Shown piece by piece: positions 7,523-46,728 of a DNA stretch of 48,651 bases. The notes below the pieces were generated by a model. That model saw only the letters and a program-made list of their open reading frames with translations. It was not told where the DNA came from and made no database searches. A program made the position numbers and the translations under genes. The DNA comes from an uncultured Eubacteriales bacterium (lineage in GTDB: Bacteria; Bacillota; Clostridia; Oscillospirales; Oscillospiraceae), in contig ONPN01000050.1 in the NCBI GenBank assembly GCA_900319695.1, positions 1-48,651 on the forward strand. Direction: 5' to 3'. Positions within the stretch are counted from its first letter, which is position 1; each line of letters opens with the position of its first letter.

Positions 7523-8215
7523 ATGAATCTCAACAAAATCTCCGTGCGCGAGGAGTTCGTGCGCGCGATTGAGAATAAAATTCTGTCCGGCGAACTGAAA
7601 ATCGGCGACCGTCTTCCGAGTGCGCGGGAGCTGTGCACGCTGATGGGCGTGAGTCTCACCTCTGTCAGCACCGGTATCACGGAGCTTGCCAACAAGGGCT
7701 TTCTGGCGGTCAAGCCCCGCCATGGGGTCTATGTAAAAGATTACCGCAAGGAAGCCACTCCGGAGACCTTTTTTGCCATTCTGCGCTACAACGGCGGAAA
7801 CCTGAACGCCCATGAGATTCGTTCCTTCACCGAGACCCGCATTGCCGCCGATCCGCTGGTGGCAAGGCTTGTGGCGGAGCGGGCCAGTGACGCGGAGCTT
7901 GCGGAGCTCCGCACCCTCGCCGGACGCTTTGCCGTGTGTAAAGAGCTCCCGGATGCCTGCGAGGCCATCACCGCGTTTTGCTATCGGCTGTATCAGCTCA
8001 GTGACAACTCCATTTTTGCCATGCTTTACAAGACAACGATGGAGGCCCAGAAGGGCATGTACGCCCTGTATTTTAAGAAAAACGGCCTGCGCACTGTGAA
8101 AGAGACCATGTCCTCCGTTGCCGAAGCCATGGTCGGGCGTGACTGGGAGACGGCCGGGAAGCTGCTGCTCAGCTCTGTGGAGAGCGTCATCTCCGGGGAA
8201 AGCTCTTTGATCTGA
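7523..8215 (+). CDS. GntR-family regulator, FadR/FCD subfamily
   Basis: A 230-residue regulator. The N-terminal winged HTH (about 8-75) shows the GntR pattern ILSGELKIGDRLPSARELC and a wing GFLAVKPRHGVYV. The C-terminal helical domain (about 95-225, with VARLVAERASDAELAELR) resembles FCD effector domains. TAGGAG lies about 8 nt before the ATG. The palindrome across its promoter suggests autorepression. The upstream EFR1 gene is the nearest candidate target, but that gene has an independent consensus promoter without the same site. The effector is unknown. Confidence 0.88.
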   Translation: MNLNKISVREEFVRAIENKILSGELKIGDRLPSARELCTLMGVSLTSVSTGITELANKGFLAVKPRHGVYVKDYRKEATPETFFAILRYNGGNLNAHEIRSFTETRIAADPLVARLVAERASDAELAELRTLAGRFAVCKELPDACEAITAFCYRLYQLSDNSIFAMLYKTTMEAQKGMYALYFKKNGLRTVKETMSSVAEAMVGRDWETAGKLLLSSVESVISGESSLI

Positions 8216-39123: not shown

Positions 39124-40185
39124 ATGAAAAAATTTGCGGTGTTCAGCGGCTTTCTCGGTTCGGGAAAGACGACGGCCATGATGGCCCTGACCAAATACTA
39201 TACGGCCCATCACAGGAAAGCCGCCATGATCTCCAACGATCTCGGCGAGGGCGTAACCCTTGCCGACCATCGTCTCGCCGTACTCAGCGGTGCAAACGCC
39301 TCGGAGATCACGGATGAGTGCATCTGCTTCTGCCGCGACGTTCTGACGCAGCGGCTGAACGCCTGTTATGACGACGGCTGTGAGCTTGTCATTTCGGATA
39401 TTCCGGGCTTTGGCGTCGGCGCGCTCGAGCATGTCTATCACGGTCTCGGCAAGGACTGCCCCGGAGAGTTTGAGCTTGCCCCCTTCACCGTCCTCATTGA
39501 GCCCCGAAACGTGAAGCTGCTCCGTGACGGGCAGCCGGACGACATGGCGCACATCCTGCGCGCGCAGCTCATGGAGGCCGATCTCATCGTGCTCAGCAAG
39601 GGCGATCTTCTGACAGATGCTGAGCTTGCCGATCTCTGCGCCTGGCTTGCCGACAGCTATCCCCAGGCGAAGGTCATCACAATCAGCGCCGCGAGAGGCG
39701 ACGGACTCGAGACGCTCTCTCAGGAGCTGAAACAGGGCCATGCCTCCATGCGGCATCCCGATATCGACTATGAGGATGCACTCCTGCAAAACGCCATGGA
39801 TCAGCTCAGCGAGTACTATCTTCAATATCACGCGCAGGTCTGCTGCCTTGACTTTGACGGGACGGCGTACCTCTCGGACATTGCCCGTTCGGTGCAGACG
39901 GCGCTGCGGGCCGAGGGACGCGAGATCCCGCACATGAAGCTCCTGGCCTGGGAGCCGGGTGGCGATTTCGGCAAGGTCGATCTGCTCGGCGTCGACCGCC
40001 CGATTGAGATCACAAGGTCGTTTGAACACCCCTGCACAGCCCTCGCCGTCGTTCTGAACGCAAACGCCGCCTGTCCCGCAGCCAGGCTGGACGAGCTTAT
40101 CATGCAGGCTGTGGATACCGTCTCGGAGCAATATCAGCTCGATCTGCTGATCTTCAAAAAGGTTTTTTTCAGTCTCGGGGAATGA
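39124..40185 (+). CDS. CobW/P47K (G3E) family GTPase
   Basis: A 353-residue metallochaperone-type GTPase. Walker A GFLGSGKTT (9-17), ISNDLGEGV (family NExG-like segment), a cysteine motif ECICFC in place of the usual CxCC, SDIPGFG (G3-like), and LSKGD matching the NKxD-type base-recognition motif. The C-terminal 150 residues are divergent from ZNG1/YjiA. Substrates in this family include zinc, nickel and corrinoid systems; the present one is not evident. It is monocistronic with its own promoter and converges on the Gx-transporter gene with only 15 nt between. Confidence 0.85.
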   Translation: MKKFAVFSGFLGSGKTTAMMALTKYYTAHHRKAAMISNDLGEGVTLADHRLAVLSGANASEITDECICFCRDVLTQRLNACYDDGCELVISDIPGFGVGALEHVYHGLGKDCPGEFELAPFTVLIEPRNVKLLRDGQPDDMAHILRAQLMEADLIVLSKGDLLTDAELADLCAWLADSYPQAKVITISAARGDGLETLSQELKQGHASMRHPDIDYEDALLQNAMDQLSEYYLQYHAQVCCLDFDGTAYLSDIARSVQTALRAEGREIPHMKLLAWEPGGDFGKVDLLGVDRPIEITRSFEHPCTALAVVLNANAACPAARLDELIMQAVDTVSEQYQLDLLIFKKVFFSLGE

Positions 40186-40200: not shown

Positions 40201-40704
40201 CTACCGCGGAATCAGGGATTTCGGAATGCGCTTGTCCAGGATCTGCGCGACCGTTCCCGTGACGAAGCCCATAGCCAGACCTACGAGCATCAAAACCCCC
40301 ATGTACCAGACAAGTCCGTCGGTTCTTAAGATCAGCATGGCCGCCGCGACCTGCCCGACGTTGTGCAGCACGGCTCCGGCGACGGCAGTCGCGACAAGGC
40401 CGAAGCGTCCCCCGCGGCAGAGCAGGCACATCGCCGTCAAGCTCAAAAGTCCCCCCGCAAGCGCATACAGCATGGCCCCGACGCCGGAGAACAGGAACGC
40501 CGAAAGCAGAATCTTGGCGAACATAAGGGCAAAGGCCGCAGGGATGCCGAGCCAGCAGATGGCGAGGATCAGCACGCTGTTGCTCAGGCCGAGCTTGACC
40601 CCCGGGATACCCGTCGGGATCAGACTCTCCACATAGCCGAGCATCAGCATGACGGCGACCAGCAGCGCGGACAGGGCCAAGCGTCTCACTTGTTTTCGTT
40701 CCAT
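40201..40704 (-). CDS. Gx transporter family membrane protein (EetB-like)
   Basis: A 167-residue membrane protein with five or six helices, of the family once called heptaprenyl diphosphate synthase component I (Hpre_diP_synt_I). Signature: IPTGIPGVKLGLSNSVLILA and AKILLSAFLFSGVGAMLYAL. The stop/start overlap with the NusG-domain-II gene upstream (40704) and the LysR beyond shows one operon. In Gram-positive flavin-based extracellular electron transfer loci a protein of this family (EetB) accompanies a NusG-II protein (EetA); that pairing is from memory and should be checked by search. Its molecular job is unknown. Confidence 0.85.
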   Translation of the reverse strand: MERKQVRRLALSALLVAVMLMLGYVESLIPTGIPGVKLGLSNSVLILAICWLGIPAAFALMFAKILLSAFLFSGVGAMLYALAGGLLSLTAMCLLCRGGRFGLVATAVAGAVLHNVGQVAAAMLILRTDGLVWYMGVLMLVGLAMGFVTGTVAQILDKRIPKSLIPR

Positions 40705-41237
40705 CAGTTCTCGGCCTCCGCCGCTGCGGCATACGCCTCCAGAAGGCGCGCCTCCGCTTCCTCCCGCGTGAGCAGCTCCAGCGTCAGCCGGTGCGGCAGG
40801 CAGATCACCATATTAAACAGGATGCGGGAATCCCGGTTCTCGAGCGTGACCTCGCCCTGGCCCACACAGTCCTGATTGTCACAGTTGGAGGATTCCATAT
40901 AAAACGCATTTTTCCCGATATGGACCACGTTTTCGCTCCCGTCCTCCTGCGCGACGCGAAAAGCGTTCTCCCCGCTCAGCGGGATGGGAGAATATTCCTT
41001 CCCGCCTGCCGTTACCATCAGGTAGGATTCGGCGGGATACTCCTCAAAATAGGCCCGCACCGTGTCATTTGCAAATTCCGCGTACCCGCCGGCAGCGCTC
41101 ACCGCTGCGGCGGGTTCTTCTTTTTCGGCGGGCGATACAGACGGCGCTTTTCCGTGCTGGGCGTGCCCGAGCAGAAGCACCAGCAGCGCCGCCGTGAACA
41201 GCGCCAGGAGCAGATAAAGATCTCTCTTTCGAGTCAC
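40704..41237 (-). CDS. Membrane-anchored NusG-domain-II protein (EetA-like)
   Basis: A 177-residue protein: N-terminal membrane helix (about 7-24), short linker, then an extracellular NusG domain II-like beta domain with the signature SSNCDNQDCVGQG and MVICLPHRLTLEL. The conserved cysteine pair in the signature could bind metal or form a disulfide. It overlaps the LysR gene by ATGA and the Gx-transporter gene by one base. Proteins of this type sit beside flavin transferases and exported FMN proteins in Firmicutes; here the exported flavoproteins are divergent on the other side of the LysR gene. Confidence 0.87.
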   Translation of the reverse strand: MTRKRDLYLLLALFTAALLVLLLGHAQHGKAPSVSPAEKEEPAAAVSAAGGYAEFANDTVRAYFEEYPAESYLMVTAGGKEYSPIPLSGENAFRVAQEDGSENVVHIGKNAFYMESSNCDNQDCVGQGEVTLENRDSRILFNMVICLPHRLTLELLTREEAEARLLEAYAAAAEAEN

Positions 41238-42142
41238 AGGATCACCCCGCCTTCACCCAAGCGGTCAAAATCGCCGCTGTGCCGGAAATATTCCCGGAAG
41301 CGCTCCATCAGCGGCCAATCCTCCTTTGCGTCCTCCTTCCGGCAGGCCGCGCCGATCAGGACGCTCGGCGCGTCGGCAAGGGAAACCTGACGAAAGCCCT
41401 CATTCGGCTCCAGAAAGCTCAGGGACAGGATGGGATAGCCGTTGATCTGGCAGAGGGCGTCCGCCTGATCCGGGTGCTGGTATTCGAGAAAGGCACTGTG
41501 CGGACAGCGCTCCTCCAGCAGCCGCTTGACGGCACGGAAGTTCTTCGATTCCGCGGTCCGGGCGCTCAGCAGGATCGTCTGGCCGTCCAGCTCCTCCGTC
41601 CGCACGCTCTCCCGTTCCGCAAAGGGGTGCGCGTCGGAGACGACTACCGAGTTTCGGCAGCGGAGAACAGGCAGAACGGACAGGCGTTCGTCTGCGTCCT
41701 GTATCTCAGCCAGCGGCGCGATGTCCGCCCGGTGGTTCAGCAGCGCGGAGCCGCATTCACGCAGCCTGCAGGAGATGAAGGAATAGTCGATTCCCTCATT
41801 TTCCCCCTTCAAGGCCTCACAGGCGCGGGTGACATATTTCCGGGTATAGCTGAAAATGCTGATTCTTACAAGACGTCTGCTGCATCCGACGCTCCGCGCG
41901 CGGTTGACCGCGCTCTCATAGATTTGCGGGATGGCCAGCGTCTGCCGATAAAACGCCTCGCCCTTGTCGGTGAGGGTTACGCCGAATGCGGAGCGTTCAA
42001 AGATCGGAAAGCCGACCTCTCTCTCCATGGCGGCGATCTGGCGCGTCAGCGTTGAGGTGGAGACAAAGCACTGCTCGGCGGCTTTTTTAAAACTTTTGAG
42101 CTGAACGATCACATCCAGGAGGGCCAGCTGCCTGATGTCCAT
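41234..42142 (-). CDS. LysR family regulator of the flavoprotein/Eet-like locus
   Basis: A 302-residue LysR protein: HTH (about 1-60; MDIRQLALLDVIVQLKSFKK, TSTLTRQIAAMEREVGFPIF) and a substrate-binding domain from about residue 90. ATG 42142 is chosen because AGAGGAG precedes it by about 9 nt and the HTH starts there. It heads a three-gene operon with the NusG-II and Gx-transporter genes, so the regulator and these membrane proteins are co-expressed. The operator at 42194-42216 covers its own -35 and lies at about -43 of the divergent reductase promoter: negative autoregulation and target activation are expected (inference). Confidence 0.9.
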   Translation of the reverse strand: MDIRQLALLDVIVQLKSFKKAAEQCFVSTSTLTRQIAAMEREVGFPIFERSAFGVTLTDKGEAFYRQTLAIPQIYESAVNRARSVGCSRRLVRISIFSYTRKYVTRACEALKGENEGIDYSFISCRLRECGSALLNHRADIAPLAEIQDADERLSVLPVLRCRNSVVVSDAHPFAERESVRTEELDGQTILLSARTAESKNFRAVKRLLEERCPHSAFLEYQHPDQADALCQINGYPILSLSFLEPNEGFRQVSLADAPSVLIGAACRKEDAKEDWPLMERFREYFRHSGDFDRLGEGGVIL

Positions 42143-42174
42143 ATCACCGAACTCCTCTCCGAAAAACTGCAAAA

Positions 42175-42203
42175 ATTATAACAAATTGCAACAGGCTTTG
42201 CAA
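42175..42203 (-). promoter_or_regulatory. Promoter of the LysR-NusGII-Gx operon
   Basis: On the minus strand: TTGCAA (42203-42198), 17-nt spacer, TATAAT (42180-42175) with an extended TG. The -35 is inside the LysR palindrome. Confidence 0.7.
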
Positions 42204-42216
42204 GATACGCAAAGCC
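42194..42216. promoter_or_regulatory. LysR operator, perfect palindrome
   Basis: GGCTTTGC (42194-42201), AAGATAC, GCAAAGCC (42209-42216): perfect 8-bp arms fitting T-N11-A and containing TTGC-N7-GCAA. It is centred about 43 bp before the start of the plus-strand reductase transcript and overlaps the minus-strand -35. Confidence 0.75.
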
Positions 42217-42232
42217 CCTTTTTTGTGTAATG

Positions 42233-42241
42233 TGCTATAAT
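42233..42241 (+). promoter_or_regulatory. Extended -10 of the reductase operon at 42284
   Basis: TG (42233-42234), one base, TATAAT (42236-42241). There is no good -35, the same activator-type layout as at 1085-1093. Confidence 0.65.
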
Positions 42242-42283
42242 TATTTCATCCCATTTCGGAGCAAAATTGTGAGGAGGTACAAA

Positions 42284-44488
42284 ATGAACATTTCAAGACG
42301 CGACTTTTTGAAAGGGACGGCCGCAGGCGCTCTGGGCCTTGCGGCTTCCAGTCTTCTCAGCCCGGTTTCCGCCTTTGCGGAGGGGGAAAAGAAAGCCGAA
42401 GAGCTGAACATCCACCAGGCGATGGCCGGTCTGAACCCGCAGGATTATGATTTCCGCGATCCCGATTCCGATCTCGCCGCGATCTTCAGCCCCTGGAAAT
42501 TCGGCGGTCTCAGCCTGAGCCACCGCATGGTCAAATCCGCTGCCGGCTCCGACACGCAGAAGGGCAGCGAGGAGGAGGCCGTCGAGTACTACGCCAACTT
42601 TGCCAAGGGCGGCGTGGAGATGGTCTGGGTCGAGGACTTTCTGAAATTCCATGACAACTTCCCCAGCGCCCGCGCCACCGCGATCGAGGATTCCCATGTC
42701 AAGGCCGTTGTCGACGGCGTGCATAAAGCAGGCGGCTACATCGGCTATCAGCTCAGCTGCATGGGCCGTTCCTTCAGCGGCTTTGACGCTGCGACCGCAC
42801 CCATGTACGCTTCCGCCTTTGCCGAACACCTGACCCGCGAGGAGGTCAAGCTCGTCCAGGAGGACTTCATCAACGGCGCCAAGAAGATGAAGGATCTCGG
42901 CTTCGACGCGGTGGAGATCAACGCCGCCGGCAACAACATCGGCCAGGCCTTCTTCTCCCGCCAGCGCAACCACAGGGACGACGAGTACGGCCCCCAGAGC
43001 TTTGAAAACCGCGCCCGCTTTGTCGGTGAGATCATCACCGGCATCAAGGAGGTCTGCGGCAAGGACTTCCCCGTGCAGGTTCTGATCAACGGCATTGAGG
43101 AAAACGACATTGACATCGGTCAGGCCGATCTGTCTACCACGGTCGAGGAAAACTGCAAGATCTGCAAATCTCTTGAGGAATTTGGCGCTGATTCGCTGCA
43201 CGTGCGTCTGGGCGTGTTCCGCATGCACGTGTGCCAGTTTGCCTCCGACCTCTATTTCACCGGCAACGGCATCATCGGCACGGCGGCCAACGGCACCCGC
43301 TTCGACTTCTCCCGTCACTTTGAGGGCAAGCTCCTCGCCAATCACGACGCTTACGGCATGATGCTCAAGGTAGCCCAGGAGATCAAGCAGGCCGTCACCA
43401 TCCCCGTCGGCACCGTCACCTGCATGAACCCCGCCCACGCTCCCAAGTTCTTCAACGATGCGATCAAGAACGGCATGTGCGACTTCTTCATCATGAACCG
43501 CCCGCTCACCGTCGATACCGAGTACGTCAACAAGCTGCGCGAAGGCCGCCTTGATGAGATCGCCCCCTGCACCCGCTGCATGCACTGCCACTTTGACTAC
43601 GACGAGAACGGCAAGACCTATGAGCACTGCCGTGTCAACGCGGCGACGCAGCGCGCCTGGCACGATCAGATGCCCGAGGGCGCGACCCCGCGTCCCGCGG
43701 ACGGCGACAAGAAGGTCATGGTCGTCGGCGGCGGCCCCGCCGGTATGGAGGCGGCCCGCATCGCAGCCCAGCGCGGCTACGACGTGACGCTCTATGAAAA
43801 GAACGGCATGCTCGGCGGTCTGCTCACCTTCGCCAATATCATCAAGGGCCCGCATGAGAATCTGGACGATCTCAAAAAATACCTGATCCGTCAGCAGGAG
43901 CTCAAGGGCGTCAAGGTCGTCACCGGCACAGAGGTGACAAAGGACTTTATCGAGAAGGAAGCGCCCGACTATGTGGTGCTCGCCGTCGGCGGCAAGCGTC
44001 CGGCGCTTGAGCTCGCGTCCCATGGCGCGACGACGGTCATCTCCCTCGACGACATCGCGCGCACGAAGATCGGCGAGCATGTCACCATCATCGGCGGCAA
44101 CGCCCAGGCCGTGGATACCGCGCAGTATCTCATCGCCCAGGGCAAGCATGTCACCATGGTCTCCCCCGAGGACAAGGACAAGCTGGACAAGGGCCAGTCC
44201 TCCTGGGTCAAGCAATTCACCATCCCCATGCTGTACGCAAACGGCATGCGCCTGTGGCCGAACGCCTCTGTCAAGGAGATCCGTGACGGCGAGATCGTCA
44301 TCGACGGCGAGACCGGCTGCGACATCGTGATCGCCTGCGAGACCGTCATCGACGCGCGCGACATGCTGCCGAACAAGGACATGATCGACGGTCTCTCCAT
44401 CCCCGCCATTGCGGTCGGCGACTGCAACCTGCCCTTCAACATTGCCGAGGCGATCGCCGCCGGCAATATCGCCGCGAGAAACATCTGA
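42284..44488 (+). CDS. Tat-exported Old Yellow Enzyme-type FMN/4Fe-4S/FAD reductase
   Basis: A 734-residue paralogue of 28013-30220. Tat signal SRRDFLKG (4-11) with cleavage near AFAEG. FMN barrel (about 70-410; LSHRMVKSAAGSDTQKG, FENRARFVGEIITGI, FFIMNRPLTVDTEYVNKL), 4Fe-4S cysteines CTRCMHCHFDY...HCRVNA, and a C-terminal nucleotide-binding domain (MVVGGGPAGMEAARIAAQRG, VTIIGGNAQAVDTAQYL). GAGGAGG lies 6 nt before ATG 42284. It is followed after 41 nt by the tandem-FMN flavoprotein, presumably one operon. Proposed role: reduction of an external organic acceptor by electrons delivered through flavins (inference); the acceptor is not known. Confidence 0.88.
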   Translation: MNISRRDFLKGTAAGALGLAASSLLSPVSAFAEGEKKAEELNIHQAMAGLNPQDYDFRDPDSDLAAIFSPWKFGGLSLSHRMVKSAAGSDTQKGSEEEAVEYYANFAKGGVEMVWVEDFLKFHDNFPSARATAIEDSHVKAVVDGVHKAGGYIGYQLSCMGRSFSGFDAATAPMYASAFAEHLTREEVKLVQEDFINGAKKMKDLGFDAVEINAAGNNIGQAFFSRQRNHRDDEYGPQSFENRARFVGEIITGIKEVCGKDFPVQVLINGIEENDIDIGQADLSTTVEENCKICKSLEEFGADSLHVRLGVFRMHVCQFASDLYFTGNGIIGTAANGTRFDFSRHFEGKLLANHDAYGMMLKVAQEIKQAVTIPVGTVTCMNPAHAPKFFNDAIKNGMCDFFIMNRPLTVDTEYVNKLREGRLDEIAPCTRCMHCHFDYDENGKTYEHCRVNAATQRAWHDQMPEGATPRPADGDKKVMVVGGGPAGMEAARIAAQRGYDVTLYEKNGMLGGLLTFANIIKGPHENLDDLKKYLIRQQELKGVKVVTGTEVTKDFIEKEAPDYVVLAVGGKRPALELASHGATTVISLDDIARTKIGEHVTIIGGNAQAVDTAQYLIAQGKHVTMVSPEDKDKLDKGQSSWVKQFTIPMLYANGMRLWPNASVKEIRDGEIVIDGETGCDIVIACETVIDARDMLPNKDMIDGLSIPAIAVGDCNLPFNIAEAIAAGNIAARNI

Positions 44489-44529
44489 TTTTCCGGCAGC
44501 TCATTACATGCCAGAGAGGAGAATCTCTT

Positions 44530-46728
44530 ATGAAAAAAATCTTATCCCTCTGCCTCTGCGTCTGCATGCTGCTCTCGCTCGGCCTCGTCTCTCACGCCGA
44601 GGGCTTCACGCCGGGCAGCTATGAGGCCGCGGCGCACGGCTTCGGCGGGGATGTGACGGTCAAGATCACCGTCGACGCCGAGAAGGTCACGGACATTGAG
44701 ATCGTCGGCGACGGCGAGACCCCGACCGTCGGCGGTCAGGCCATCGCGCATTACAACGAACGCCTCACGGGCATCTCGTCCGCCGAGGAGGTCGACGCCG
44801 TCTCCGGCGCGACCTTCACCTCCGCCGCCGTAAAAACCGCCGTCGCAGACTGTCTGCGTCAGGCCCGCGGGGAGACGGCTGCCGAGGGCGCGGCTCTGGT
44901 CGACGGGACCTATCAGGGAGAGGGCTTCGGCTTCAATCTCACCGTGCGCGTTCCCGTGACGGTTGAGGTCAAAGACGGGAAGCTGGCCTCTGTTGAGGTC
45001 GGCGAGAACGGCGAGACCAACGGCTTTATCGACACCGTGATCGACAAGTTCATCCCCCGTGTCATCGACTGGCAGAGCCTCGCGGTCGACGCCATCACCG
45101 GCGCGACGGCAAGCTCCAACGGCGTGCGCCAGGGCATTGAAAACGCGCTGAAGGACGGCGGCATGGACCTCGCCGGACTGTATACGCCCATTCCGAAGAA
45201 GAACGCCGCCGAGAGCTACGAGACCGACGTACTTGTGATCGGCATGGGCTCCTCCGGCACGACGGCGGCGCTCGCCGCGGCCGAGAAGGGCGTCAAGGTC
45301 CTCGCCATCGACAAGGCCGGCAAATGGGGCGGCACCGGCGCGACGACCTCCGGCCCCGCGAACATCAACGCGCCCAGCCAGGTGGCGGCTGAGATCGTCG
45401 ACTGGAAGGACCCCATCCAGGGCCAGCACACCAAGGCCCCCGGCGAGCCGCTGGTTGACGCGGACGCGCTGTATCAGACCTGGCTTGACTACACCACCGT
45501 CGACGGCGTGCAGGGCGCAAAGCCCGAGCTCATCGCCAAGGTGATCTACGAGTCCGGCGAGACCTGCGACTGGCTCCAGGATTACGGCTTTGCCTTCGGC
45601 CCGGCTGTCGGCTTCGTGGGCGGCAAGTGGGCGATCTTCTCCTCCTATGTCGGCAACAAGGCGCTCACGGAGAGCTACTTTGCCAAGGCCTATGAGAAGT
45701 ATACCGAGATGGGCGGGCAGTACCTGCTTGAGACCGAGGCGACCGATCTGCTCTTTGAGGATGGCCGCTGCGTAGGCGTCAAGGCCATCAAGGCCGACGG
45801 CACGGTCGTGACCATCCGCGCCAAGGCTGTCCTCTGCTGCTCCGGCGGCTACGCTGCCAGTGAGGAGCTGCAGCGCCGCTTCACCGGCGACGCCTACAAG
45901 CTCTACGGCATGTACACCAACGACGGCAAAATGATCCGCTCCGCGGTAGAAAACGGTGCGGCTACCTACAGCATCGGCATCTATCCGATGTCCCACTTTG
46001 TGGCCCCGAGTCAGATCACGACCTGCTTCTCGTTCGCAGACAACGATATCCCCTACGGTCTCGTCTGCACCGCCGAGGGCATGGCGGTCAACCGCGAGGG
46101 CAATCGCTTCATTGACGAATCCTCCATCGCCATGCAGGCTTTCTACCAGGGCAGCGAGTTCTTCTATGTCTACTCTGCCGACCAGATCGACGTGCTGCGC
46201 GAGAAGGGCCTGAGCGCCAACGCCTCCGGCCGGTATCTGTCCCAGGGCGGCATCACGGCCGACACGCCGCTTGCCAACATCGACGCGGTCATCGACTACG
46301 GCGTGGACGCGGGCTTTATCTATAAAGCCGCCACGCTCGAGGAGCTGGCCGGGCAGCTCGGCATGCCTGCCGAAAATCTCAAGGCCTCCGTTGCCGGCTA
46401 CAAGCCCGACGGCGACGCCTTCGGCAAGGATCCGGCAAAGTTTGAACGCCTCGGCACAGTCTCCGAGGACGCCGCGTACTATGTGGCCTTCACCGGCTGC
46501 CCGTACATCTACAGCACCTGCGGCGGACTCGACGTCAATGAGAATTTCCAGGTTCTCAACACCGAGGGAGAGGTCATCCCCGGTCTCTTCGCCTGCGGCA
46601 CGGACAGTATGGGCGTCCTCTTCAACGAGCAGAAGGCTTACACCAACTACGGCGGCTGCGCCCAGGGCTACTGCTTCGTCTCCGGACGGGATGCAGGCTA
46701 CTACGCGGCGGAGCAGATTCTCGGCTAA
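44530..46728 (+). CDS. Secreted flavoprotein with two FMN-binding domains and a fumarate reductase-like FAD domain
   Basis: A 732-residue protein. Sec signal peptide (1-24; LSLCLCVCMLLSLGLVSHAE). FMN-binding domain 1 (about 26-110) with SGAT at 92-95 and domain 2 (about 123-208) with TGAT at 190-193; Thr95 and Thr193 are the expected covalent FMN sites loaded by an ApbE-type transferase, which is not encoded in this window. Then a fumarate reductase/succinate dehydrogenase-like FAD domain (GMGSSG at 238-243; GGTGATTSGPANINAP, AVLCCSGGYAAS, GLFACGTDSMG). Two FMN domains in a row suggest an electron wire into the FAD site. The broken gene at 1137 has one such domain and uses Tat, not Sec. AGAGGAG precedes the ATG. 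A strong terminator follows. Confidence 0.9.
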   Translation: MKKILSLCLCVCMLLSLGLVSHAEGFTPGSYEAAAHGFGGDVTVKITVDAEKVTDIEIVGDGETPTVGGQAIAHYNERLTGISSAEEVDAVSGATFTSAAVKTAVADCLRQARGETAAEGAALVDGTYQGEGFGFNLTVRVPVTVEVKDGKLASVEVGENGETNGFIDTVIDKFIPRVIDWQSLAVDAITGATASSNGVRQGIENALKDGGMDLAGLYTPIPKKNAAESYETDVLVIGMGSSGTTAALAAAEKGVKVLAIDKAGKWGGTGATTSGPANINAPSQVAAEIVDWKDPIQGQHTKAPGEPLVDADALYQTWLDYTTVDGVQGAKPELIAKVIYESGETCDWLQDYGFAFGPAVGFVGGKWAIFSSYVGNKALTESYFAKAYEKYTEMGGQYLLETEATDLLFEDGRCVGVKAIKADGTVVTIRAKAVLCCSGGYAASEELQRRFTGDAYKLYGMYTNDGKMIRSAVENGAATYSIGIYPMSHFVAPSQITTCFSFADNDIPYGLVCTAEGMAVNREGNRFIDESSIAMQAFYQGSEFFYVYSADQIDVLREKGLSANASGRYLSQGGITADTPLANIDAVIDYGVDAGFIYKAATLEELAGQLGMPAENLKASVAGYKPDGDAFGKDPAKFERLGTVSEDAAYYVAFTGCPYIYSTCGGLDVNENFQVLNTEGEVIPGLFACGTDSMGVLFNEQKAYTNYGGCAQGYCFVSGRDAGYYAAEQILG

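Follow-up and report, generated by a model that had tools for sequence, protein, structure and literature searches.

A putative extracellular redox locus with a predicted exported, probably flavin-fed Old Yellow Enzyme-type protein in an uncultured Oscillospiraceae bacterium

Introduction

The flavin-based respiration described to date, as far as excerpts of the papers concerned go, uses fumarate reductase-like enzymes of family PF00890 as terminal enzymes, and flavinylated members of this family are already known (PMC8238504, PMC11334425, PMC12052999). For the Fe-S flavoenzymes of the Old Yellow Enzyme (OYE) type, which are normally intracellular, a term search of the main text of a survey (PMC7371122) gave no hit for FMN_bind or FMN-bind, for LysR, for Tat (twin-arginine translocation), or for the words signal peptide, extracellular and fused, and no report of exported or flavinylated OYEs stood among the entries listed from the open-licence literature, as judged from titles and the beginnings of abstracts. 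Here we describe a five-gene locus encoding an OYE with a Tat-type signal. It lies at positions 40201-46728 of a 48,651-nucleotide stretch of DNA (the window; contig ONPN01000050.1, C43 in our numbering) from the 2.82-Mb, 79%-complete genome of an uncultured Oscillospiraceae bacterium. The predicted exported, probably flavin-fed OYE branch is the unusual part of this locus, and represents a variant of a known superfamily. We give a probability of roughly 0.55 to the reading that the five genes form an inducible redox module acting outside the cell, with the exported OYE fed by covalent flavin.

Results

Gene calling combined with Pfam searches placed the five genes where a preliminary description, made from the window alone, had put them, with small corrections; the best Pfam E-values per protein ranged from 1.3e-12 to 5.5e-31, and the presence of this gene set at the locus is more than chance. 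The plus strand carries the gene of the Tat-type OYE/4Fe-4S/FAD enzyme (42284..44488, 734 aa; Pfam TAT_signal, Oxidored_FMN and Pyr_redox_2), followed after 41 bases by that of a Sec-type protein of 732 aa (44530..46728), for which Pfam, motifs and PDB comparison indicate two FMN_bind domains and one fumarate reductase-like (FRD-like) FAD_binding_2 domain. The minus strand carries the genes of a LysR-type regulator (41234..42172; HTH_1 and LysR_substrate), a NusG_II/EetA-family protein of 177 aa (40704..41237; PF07009, 1.3e-12) and a PF07456 'Gx'/EetB-family, ECF-S-like membrane protein of 167 aa (40201..40704; 1.9e-28) that is a putative FAD exporter subunit. The overlaps of these three genes, previously given as ATGA, are in fact GTGA (LysR/NusG_II) and TGATG (NusG_II/Gx). 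Gene starts were taken from a codon-usage caller or set by eye. The OYE start was set by homology within an open reading frame that begins at 42230, and for the regulator an ATG at 42142 is favoured over the listed TTG at 42172, because its relatives begin MDIRQL or MDINQL. Export of the locus proteins is predicted from their signal sequences.

The window OYE matches PF00724 (1.5e-27) and PF07992 (9.4e-21), the domain pair of Fe-S flavoenzymes of the OYE and 2,4-dienoyl-CoA reductase (DCR) type. Its closest PDB sequences are NCR, DCR, histamine dehydrogenase (HADH) and trimethylamine dehydrogenase (TMADH), and it is overall nearer NCR and DCR. The Fe-S cysteines (429, 432, 435 and 449) show the C-x2-C-x2-C spacing of TMADH and HADH. 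Both the four-cysteine motif and the FAD fingerprint are retained in all 38 aligned OYE members, 35 of which carry a Tat motif; the other three are the non-exported L113 and L045, and L036, which was read from after its signal. In L036 itself (7922-8014), the start of the Tat signal meets a stop after 30 codons, the remainder being open in another frame. Scores of the window OYE against NCBIfam models were far under the curated cut-offs (245 of 825 bits for BaiCD and 268 of 750 bits for the long bilirubin reductase).

Comparison with PDB sequences placed N213, G216 and N218 of the window OYE at the positions of Met161, Glu164 and Tyr166 of DCR (residues counted in the chain), of which Tyr166 is the catalytic tyrosine. 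Position 218 is Asn in 30, Asp in 5 and His in 1 of the 36 exported members, and Tyr in none. The cytosolic L045 keeps H-x-x-H-x-Y, and L113 has N-x-x-C-x-H. Furthermore, the second Rossmann fingerprint, that for NAD(P)H, has QA as its last two residues in all 36 exported members, and reads GxGxxG in L113 and L045.

A possible source of electrons for these enzymes was suggested by their paralogs. Nine OYEs of about 830 residues, inspected in eight genomes of the genus, have a domain of about 90 residues that follows the Tat signal and precedes the OYE barrel and contains the motif VDG[IV][ST]GA[ST], matching the ApbE-flavinylation motif. The Pfam FMN_bind model hit seven of the nine at E<=0.01, and one of the nine over its curated cut-off. 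When the fusion domain was compared by hhalign with 12 FMN_bind domains of the window's own genome, the match reached 98% (pairwise E 1.4e-13) and the DG[IV][ST]GA[ST] motif was aligned. The window OYE itself has no FMN_bind domain in Pfam. An OYE from a Lachnospiraceae genome (L043) carries the domain at its C-terminus (7.5e-9; 36.6 bits against a cut-off of 22). In the OYE tree the fused state requires three changes, the N-terminal fusions occurring in two starred clades and L043 standing on a long branch whose placement is unsure. Altogether, the fused relatives suggest that the exported OYEs are powered by attached flavins rather than by the usual soluble cofactors. As a separate observation, L088 (1257-6116) holds a fused FMN_bind-OYE gene and an unfused OYE gene in tandem, with 114 bases between them.

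The Sec-type partner contains the flavinylation motifs SGAT (92-95) and TGAT (190-193), in agreement with the tandem FMN-attachment residues Thr95 and Thr193 proposed for it in the preliminary description. In this protein, A534, Y661-S662 and N706 take the places of the catalytic Arg, the His-His pair and the second Arg of flavocytochrome c (positions 402, 504-505 and 545 of the 1d4c chain), the first as seen in one PDB comparison and the others in two, and the other aligned FRD-like sequences have no Arg at the place of A534 either. These contacts are stated to be conserved in the family and essential in excerpts of the UrdA paper (PMC7921117). A fumarate or urocanate reductase function was thus rejected, since the Arg proton donor and the carboxylate-binding His/Arg are replaced; for the same reason α,β-unsaturated acids, formerly put forward for screening, are not supported as the likely acceptors of this protein. 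The best NCBIfam model for this protein is vinyl phenol reductase, at 151 of 600 bits.

Searches of the whole genome support the idea of an exported-flavin locus with EetA/EetB homologues, as they gave 17 FMN_bind matches together with one ApbE match, on another contig than the locus, where the preliminary description had called for a look for apbE. Seven other proteins combining PF00890 and FMN_bind were found in this genome, five with twin-arginine starts, one membrane-anchored and one Sec-like that is cut by a contig end. ApbE was dropped as a discriminating test; it is present in 93 of 101 genus genomes and in 18 of the 21 with the OYE.

The PF07009 and PF07456 genes lie side by side and belong to the EetA/EetB families. 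According to excerpts of PMC9973259, PF07456 is the eetB marker, EetB is a FAD-binding ECF-S export subunit needed for PplA flavinylation in Listeria, and the ΔeetA strain of Listeria keeps wild-type extracellular electron transfer (EET) activity; the same source gives eetA-eetB synteny in 3,328 genomes, which suggests some link nonetheless. On these grounds a role of the pair as an electron carrier was rejected. The Sec-type FRD-like protein would need FAD outside the cell, and we infer that the NusG_II/Gx pair supplies FAD to this protein and to ApbE. Of 101 genus genomes, 7 (counting the own genome) have a Gx copy at least 64% identical to that of the window, and four of these carry the gene inside the module; the other matches listed are 35-43% identical. 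In G261 (L127), NusG_II and Gx are divergent from an FRD gene whose product is 82% identical to that of the window, with no OYE gene on that stretch and OYE genes elsewhere in the genome. The FRD-EetB link is biased, because the FRD gene came to light through its neighbours and not through a genus-wide search.

Regarding the membrane source of electrons, the genome has a complete rnfCDGEAB set, and TatA and TatC over NCBIfam cut-offs. UbiA-type prenyltransferases (MenA/UbiA, demethylmenaquinone synthesis) gave no match in this 79%-complete genome, with 14 of 14 control genomes positive, which leaves a Listeria-type chain via demethylmenaquinone unsupported. With ApbE, complete rnfCDGEAB and TatA/TatC present and no UbiA match, Rnf would be the best candidate found.

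Analysis of the region between the LysR and OYE genes revealed a 17-bp palindrome, TTTGCAAGATACGCAAA, at 42197..42213 (no strand), whose core TTTGCAAG-N3-YGCAA is found between LysR and OYE in 8 of 8 aligned loci, the near copy L032 included. Two loci without the palindrome, L035 (which has no LysR) and L044, were left out of this alignment. The sequence TTTGCAAGATNNGCAAA has a single exact match in the genome; within two mismatches it has 14 sites, against 2 for a reversed control. The palindrome stretch also scores as a terminator-like hairpin, the region having fewer such sites (3) than its shuffles (5.6); a terminator was rejected since L040 and L085 have no T tract left. The palindrome is a probable LysR box, so that the regulation by LysR put forward earlier agrees with 8 of the 9 LysR-linked loci.

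Conservation of the module was studied in window-clade loci, defined as those with OYEs at least 69% identical to that of the window. Counting each genome once, and duplicate loci of one genome (such as L032=L055 and L037=L063) once, there are 11 of them: G000, G314/L032, G296/L033, G345/L034, G300/L040, G263/L035, G333/L084, G342/L036, G339/L085, G332/L089 and L044. L037/L038 (about 61-63%) and L088b (about 55%) fall outside this count, and in G332/L089 the contig stops within the OYE gene, with the LysR side off the contig. A LysR gene adjoins the OYE in 9/11 loci, the FRD gene with two FMN_bind domains directly follows it in 7/11, and the NusG_II and Gx genes, and with them the whole set, are present in 4/11. 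These figures indicate a module of separable parts (OYE with LysR, FRD, and the FAD-supply pair) that come and go. The four complete sets count in favour of the interpretation given in the preliminary description. All five genes stand side by side in L032, L033 and L034, with flanks unlike those of the window only in the last two; the L032 LysR gene reads in two pieces.

Near relatives include metagenome-assembled genomes from rumen samples (L037, L038) and from an abomasum sample (L035), and others bear 'RUG' isolate names, which we take to denote rumen genomes. Within the genus, exported OYEs were detected at E<=1e-60 in 21 of 101 genomes, own included, often in several copies. Beyond it, the own genome was the only positive in the family sample (1/250, E<=1e-100) and in the order sample (1/394, E<=1e-90). 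A phylum-sample search with a fused paralog as query (E<=1e-70) gave 5/398: the own genome, three others with Tat-type OYEs, and G1003, where the protein lacks a signal. The three others together have four such proteins, all of which show a lipobox-like signal. The family, order and phylum negatives are softer than those of the genus because fewer candidates were scored per genome (4, 2 and 2, respectively, against 10). In G1039, from a distant family, an OYE gene lies beside one whose product combines two FMN_bind stretches with a FAD_binding_2 domain and shares 35% identity with the Sec-type protein of the window; the gene order is the other one, and a MerR gene is near. A second OYE copy of this genome (L110) has no FMN_bind/FAD_binding_2 neighbour, and G1039 is the only one of 45 genomes of its family with the OYE.

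Several further features were recorded. A second Tat-type OYE of the window (P2; 28013..30220, minus strand, 735 aa), absent from the preliminary description and 50% identical to the first, forms its own clade in the OYE tree. A Tat-type FMN_bind-FRD gene at 1128-2992, with a divergent LysR gene at 109-993, is broken by a frame change near 2546 that reflects either decay or an assembly error. Genes for a CobW-like GTPase repeatedly lie no more than about 5 kb from those of Tat-type OYEs (window 39124-40185, L085:1710-2771 and L097:142-1203). MerR-type regulators stand beside exported FRD or OYE genes in L109 (12215-13048, confirmed by Pfam) and, by eye, in L110, L084 and L093. The product of L022:1314-5003 has 1229 residues and is probably membrane-anchored; it contains seven FMN_bind stretches and a single FAD_binding_2 domain. 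On contig C94 of the own genome, L025:7751-9331 encodes a probable membrane anchor followed by FMN_bind, which is fused to a Cytochrom_C552/NrfA domain that has CWTCK and four CxxCH motifs. Downstream lie genes for CcsB and for a ResB-like protein, the latter assigned by eye and without an NCBIfam match, and TatA/TatC genes are nearby. A literature search for this combination of FMN_bind and Cytochrom_C552/NrfA found no report.

Discussion

The observations of the preliminary description were confirmed, and its interpretation is partly supported. In the extracellular module that we propose, LysR would sense an outside compound and switch the divergent operon via the palindromic box. The OYE, whose signal and cofactor motifs are present, would take up its FMN, 4Fe-4S and FAD while still in the cytosol, be exported folded through Tat, and act outside, away from NAD(P)H, exchanging electrons with ApbE-attached FMN, as the built-in FMN_bind domain of its relatives suggests. 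The partner protein, given its Sec-type signal, would be fitted with two covalent FMN and one FAD after export, and the NusG_II/EetB pair would provide FAD both to this protein and to ApbE. Electrons would most likely come from the membrane, with Rnf as the candidate source, and pass through the tandem FMN domains to the OYE and/or the FRD-like domain, which would reduce a probably non-carboxylate compound. In evolutionary terms, a branch of the OYE superfamily may have moved outside, with NAD(P)H replaced by ApbE-attached FMN that is held in an FMN_bind domain fused at either end or in a flavinylated partner. In rumen bacteria this branch would form an enlarged group of respiratory enzymes that act outside the cell and have a new chemistry at the active site; we consider the odds of this wider proposal to be even.

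A number of observations weigh against the module reading. The GxGxQA form of the NAD(P)H fingerprint is kept in 7/9 fused OYEs, and NCR in the PDB deviates too, so that the QA ending alone is no proof of NAD(P)H-independence. In L043, SSST replaces [ST]GA[ST], which makes its flavinylation doubtful. The OYE has no adjacent FMN_bind gene in 4/11 window-clade loci (G300, G263, G333 and G342), at 7/7 other in-genus P2-type loci inspected, or at P2 of the window. L044, the ninth LysR-linked locus (31% LysR identity), has no palindrome. The EetAB pair is present in only 4/11 window-clade loci and is unlinked in G332 and G268, and the contig-end Sec-like FMN_bind-FRD gene L022:1-1146 has no NusG_II/Gx pair on its visible side, which weakens a strict rule pairing the two genes with Sec-type FRD proteins.

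The four OYE genes without an adjacent FRD gene, together with the FRD and EetAB genes of G261 without an adjacent OYE gene, would also fit two exported reductases that act separately on related substrates and have only the regulator and the flavin supply in common, with no electron transfer between the proteins. With four such loci, the two-step reduction envisaged in the preliminary description is only a possible reading. We regard the view of separate reductases as the less probable one, as OYE and FRD genes are also paired in a distant family, there in another order and beside a MerR gene, and the FMN_bind-OYE fusions suggest a covalent-flavin partner for the OYE. Rather unlikely, in turn, is that the OYE works as an extracellular dehydrogenase, like TMADH or HADH, passing the electrons of a donor via covalent FMN to the FRD-like reductase and so coupling donor to acceptor outside the cell. 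The cysteine spacing and PDB similarity to TMADH/HADH and the loss of the DCR/NCR tyrosine in all 36 exported members speak for such a role; the overall similarity to NCR and DCR, the OYE genes without adjacent FRD and the FAD fingerprint kept in 38/38 members speak against it.

A cytosolic fumarate reductase of Klebsiella consists of OYE, FMN_bind and FAD_binding_2 parts. Its flavinylation is mentioned in the excerpts of PMC12052999, and its OYE part is not. The same three modules, and the altered OYE active site, would be expected if the OYE of the window were a mere electron-input part for the FRD-like domain in a split, exported counterpart of that enzyme. OYE genes without adjacent FRD are common, and NADH is not expected outside the cell, so we consider this the most improbable of the explanations weighed here. 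If the module reading is correct, an exported flavin-fed OYE class would provide a second enzyme scaffold for anaerobic respiration in gut and rumen, opening chemistry (dienes, enones, aromatics, amines) that the PF00890 scaffold may not do, and EetB-type FAD export would be predicted to accompany Sec-exported flavoenzymes that are loaded outside.

Comparison with described systems

The Gram-positive flavin EET locus (eetA, eetB, fmnB, pplA, ndh2 and dmk genes) shares with the window the EetA/EetB adjacency and a genomic ApbE, whereas here ApbE lies on another contig, UbiA has no match, and two specific-looking enzymes are encoded at the locus. With Listeria FrdA and Shewanella UrdA, flavinylated extracytosolic enzymes according to excerpts of PMC8238504, the Sec-type protein has in common FMN_bind, FAD_binding_2 and export (predicted here); it differs in having two FMN_bind domains and in lacking the flavocytochrome c Arg/His-His/Arg residues. 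Finally, the Fe-S flavoenzyme superfamily (2,4-dienoyl-CoA reductase, BaiCD/BaiH, bilirubin reductase, NCR and TMADH) shares with the window OYE the Oxidored_FMN domain, the four-cysteine cluster and Pyr_redox_2, from which the window OYE stands apart by its Tat-type signal and by N213/G216/N218, and some of its relatives by their fusion to FMN_bind.

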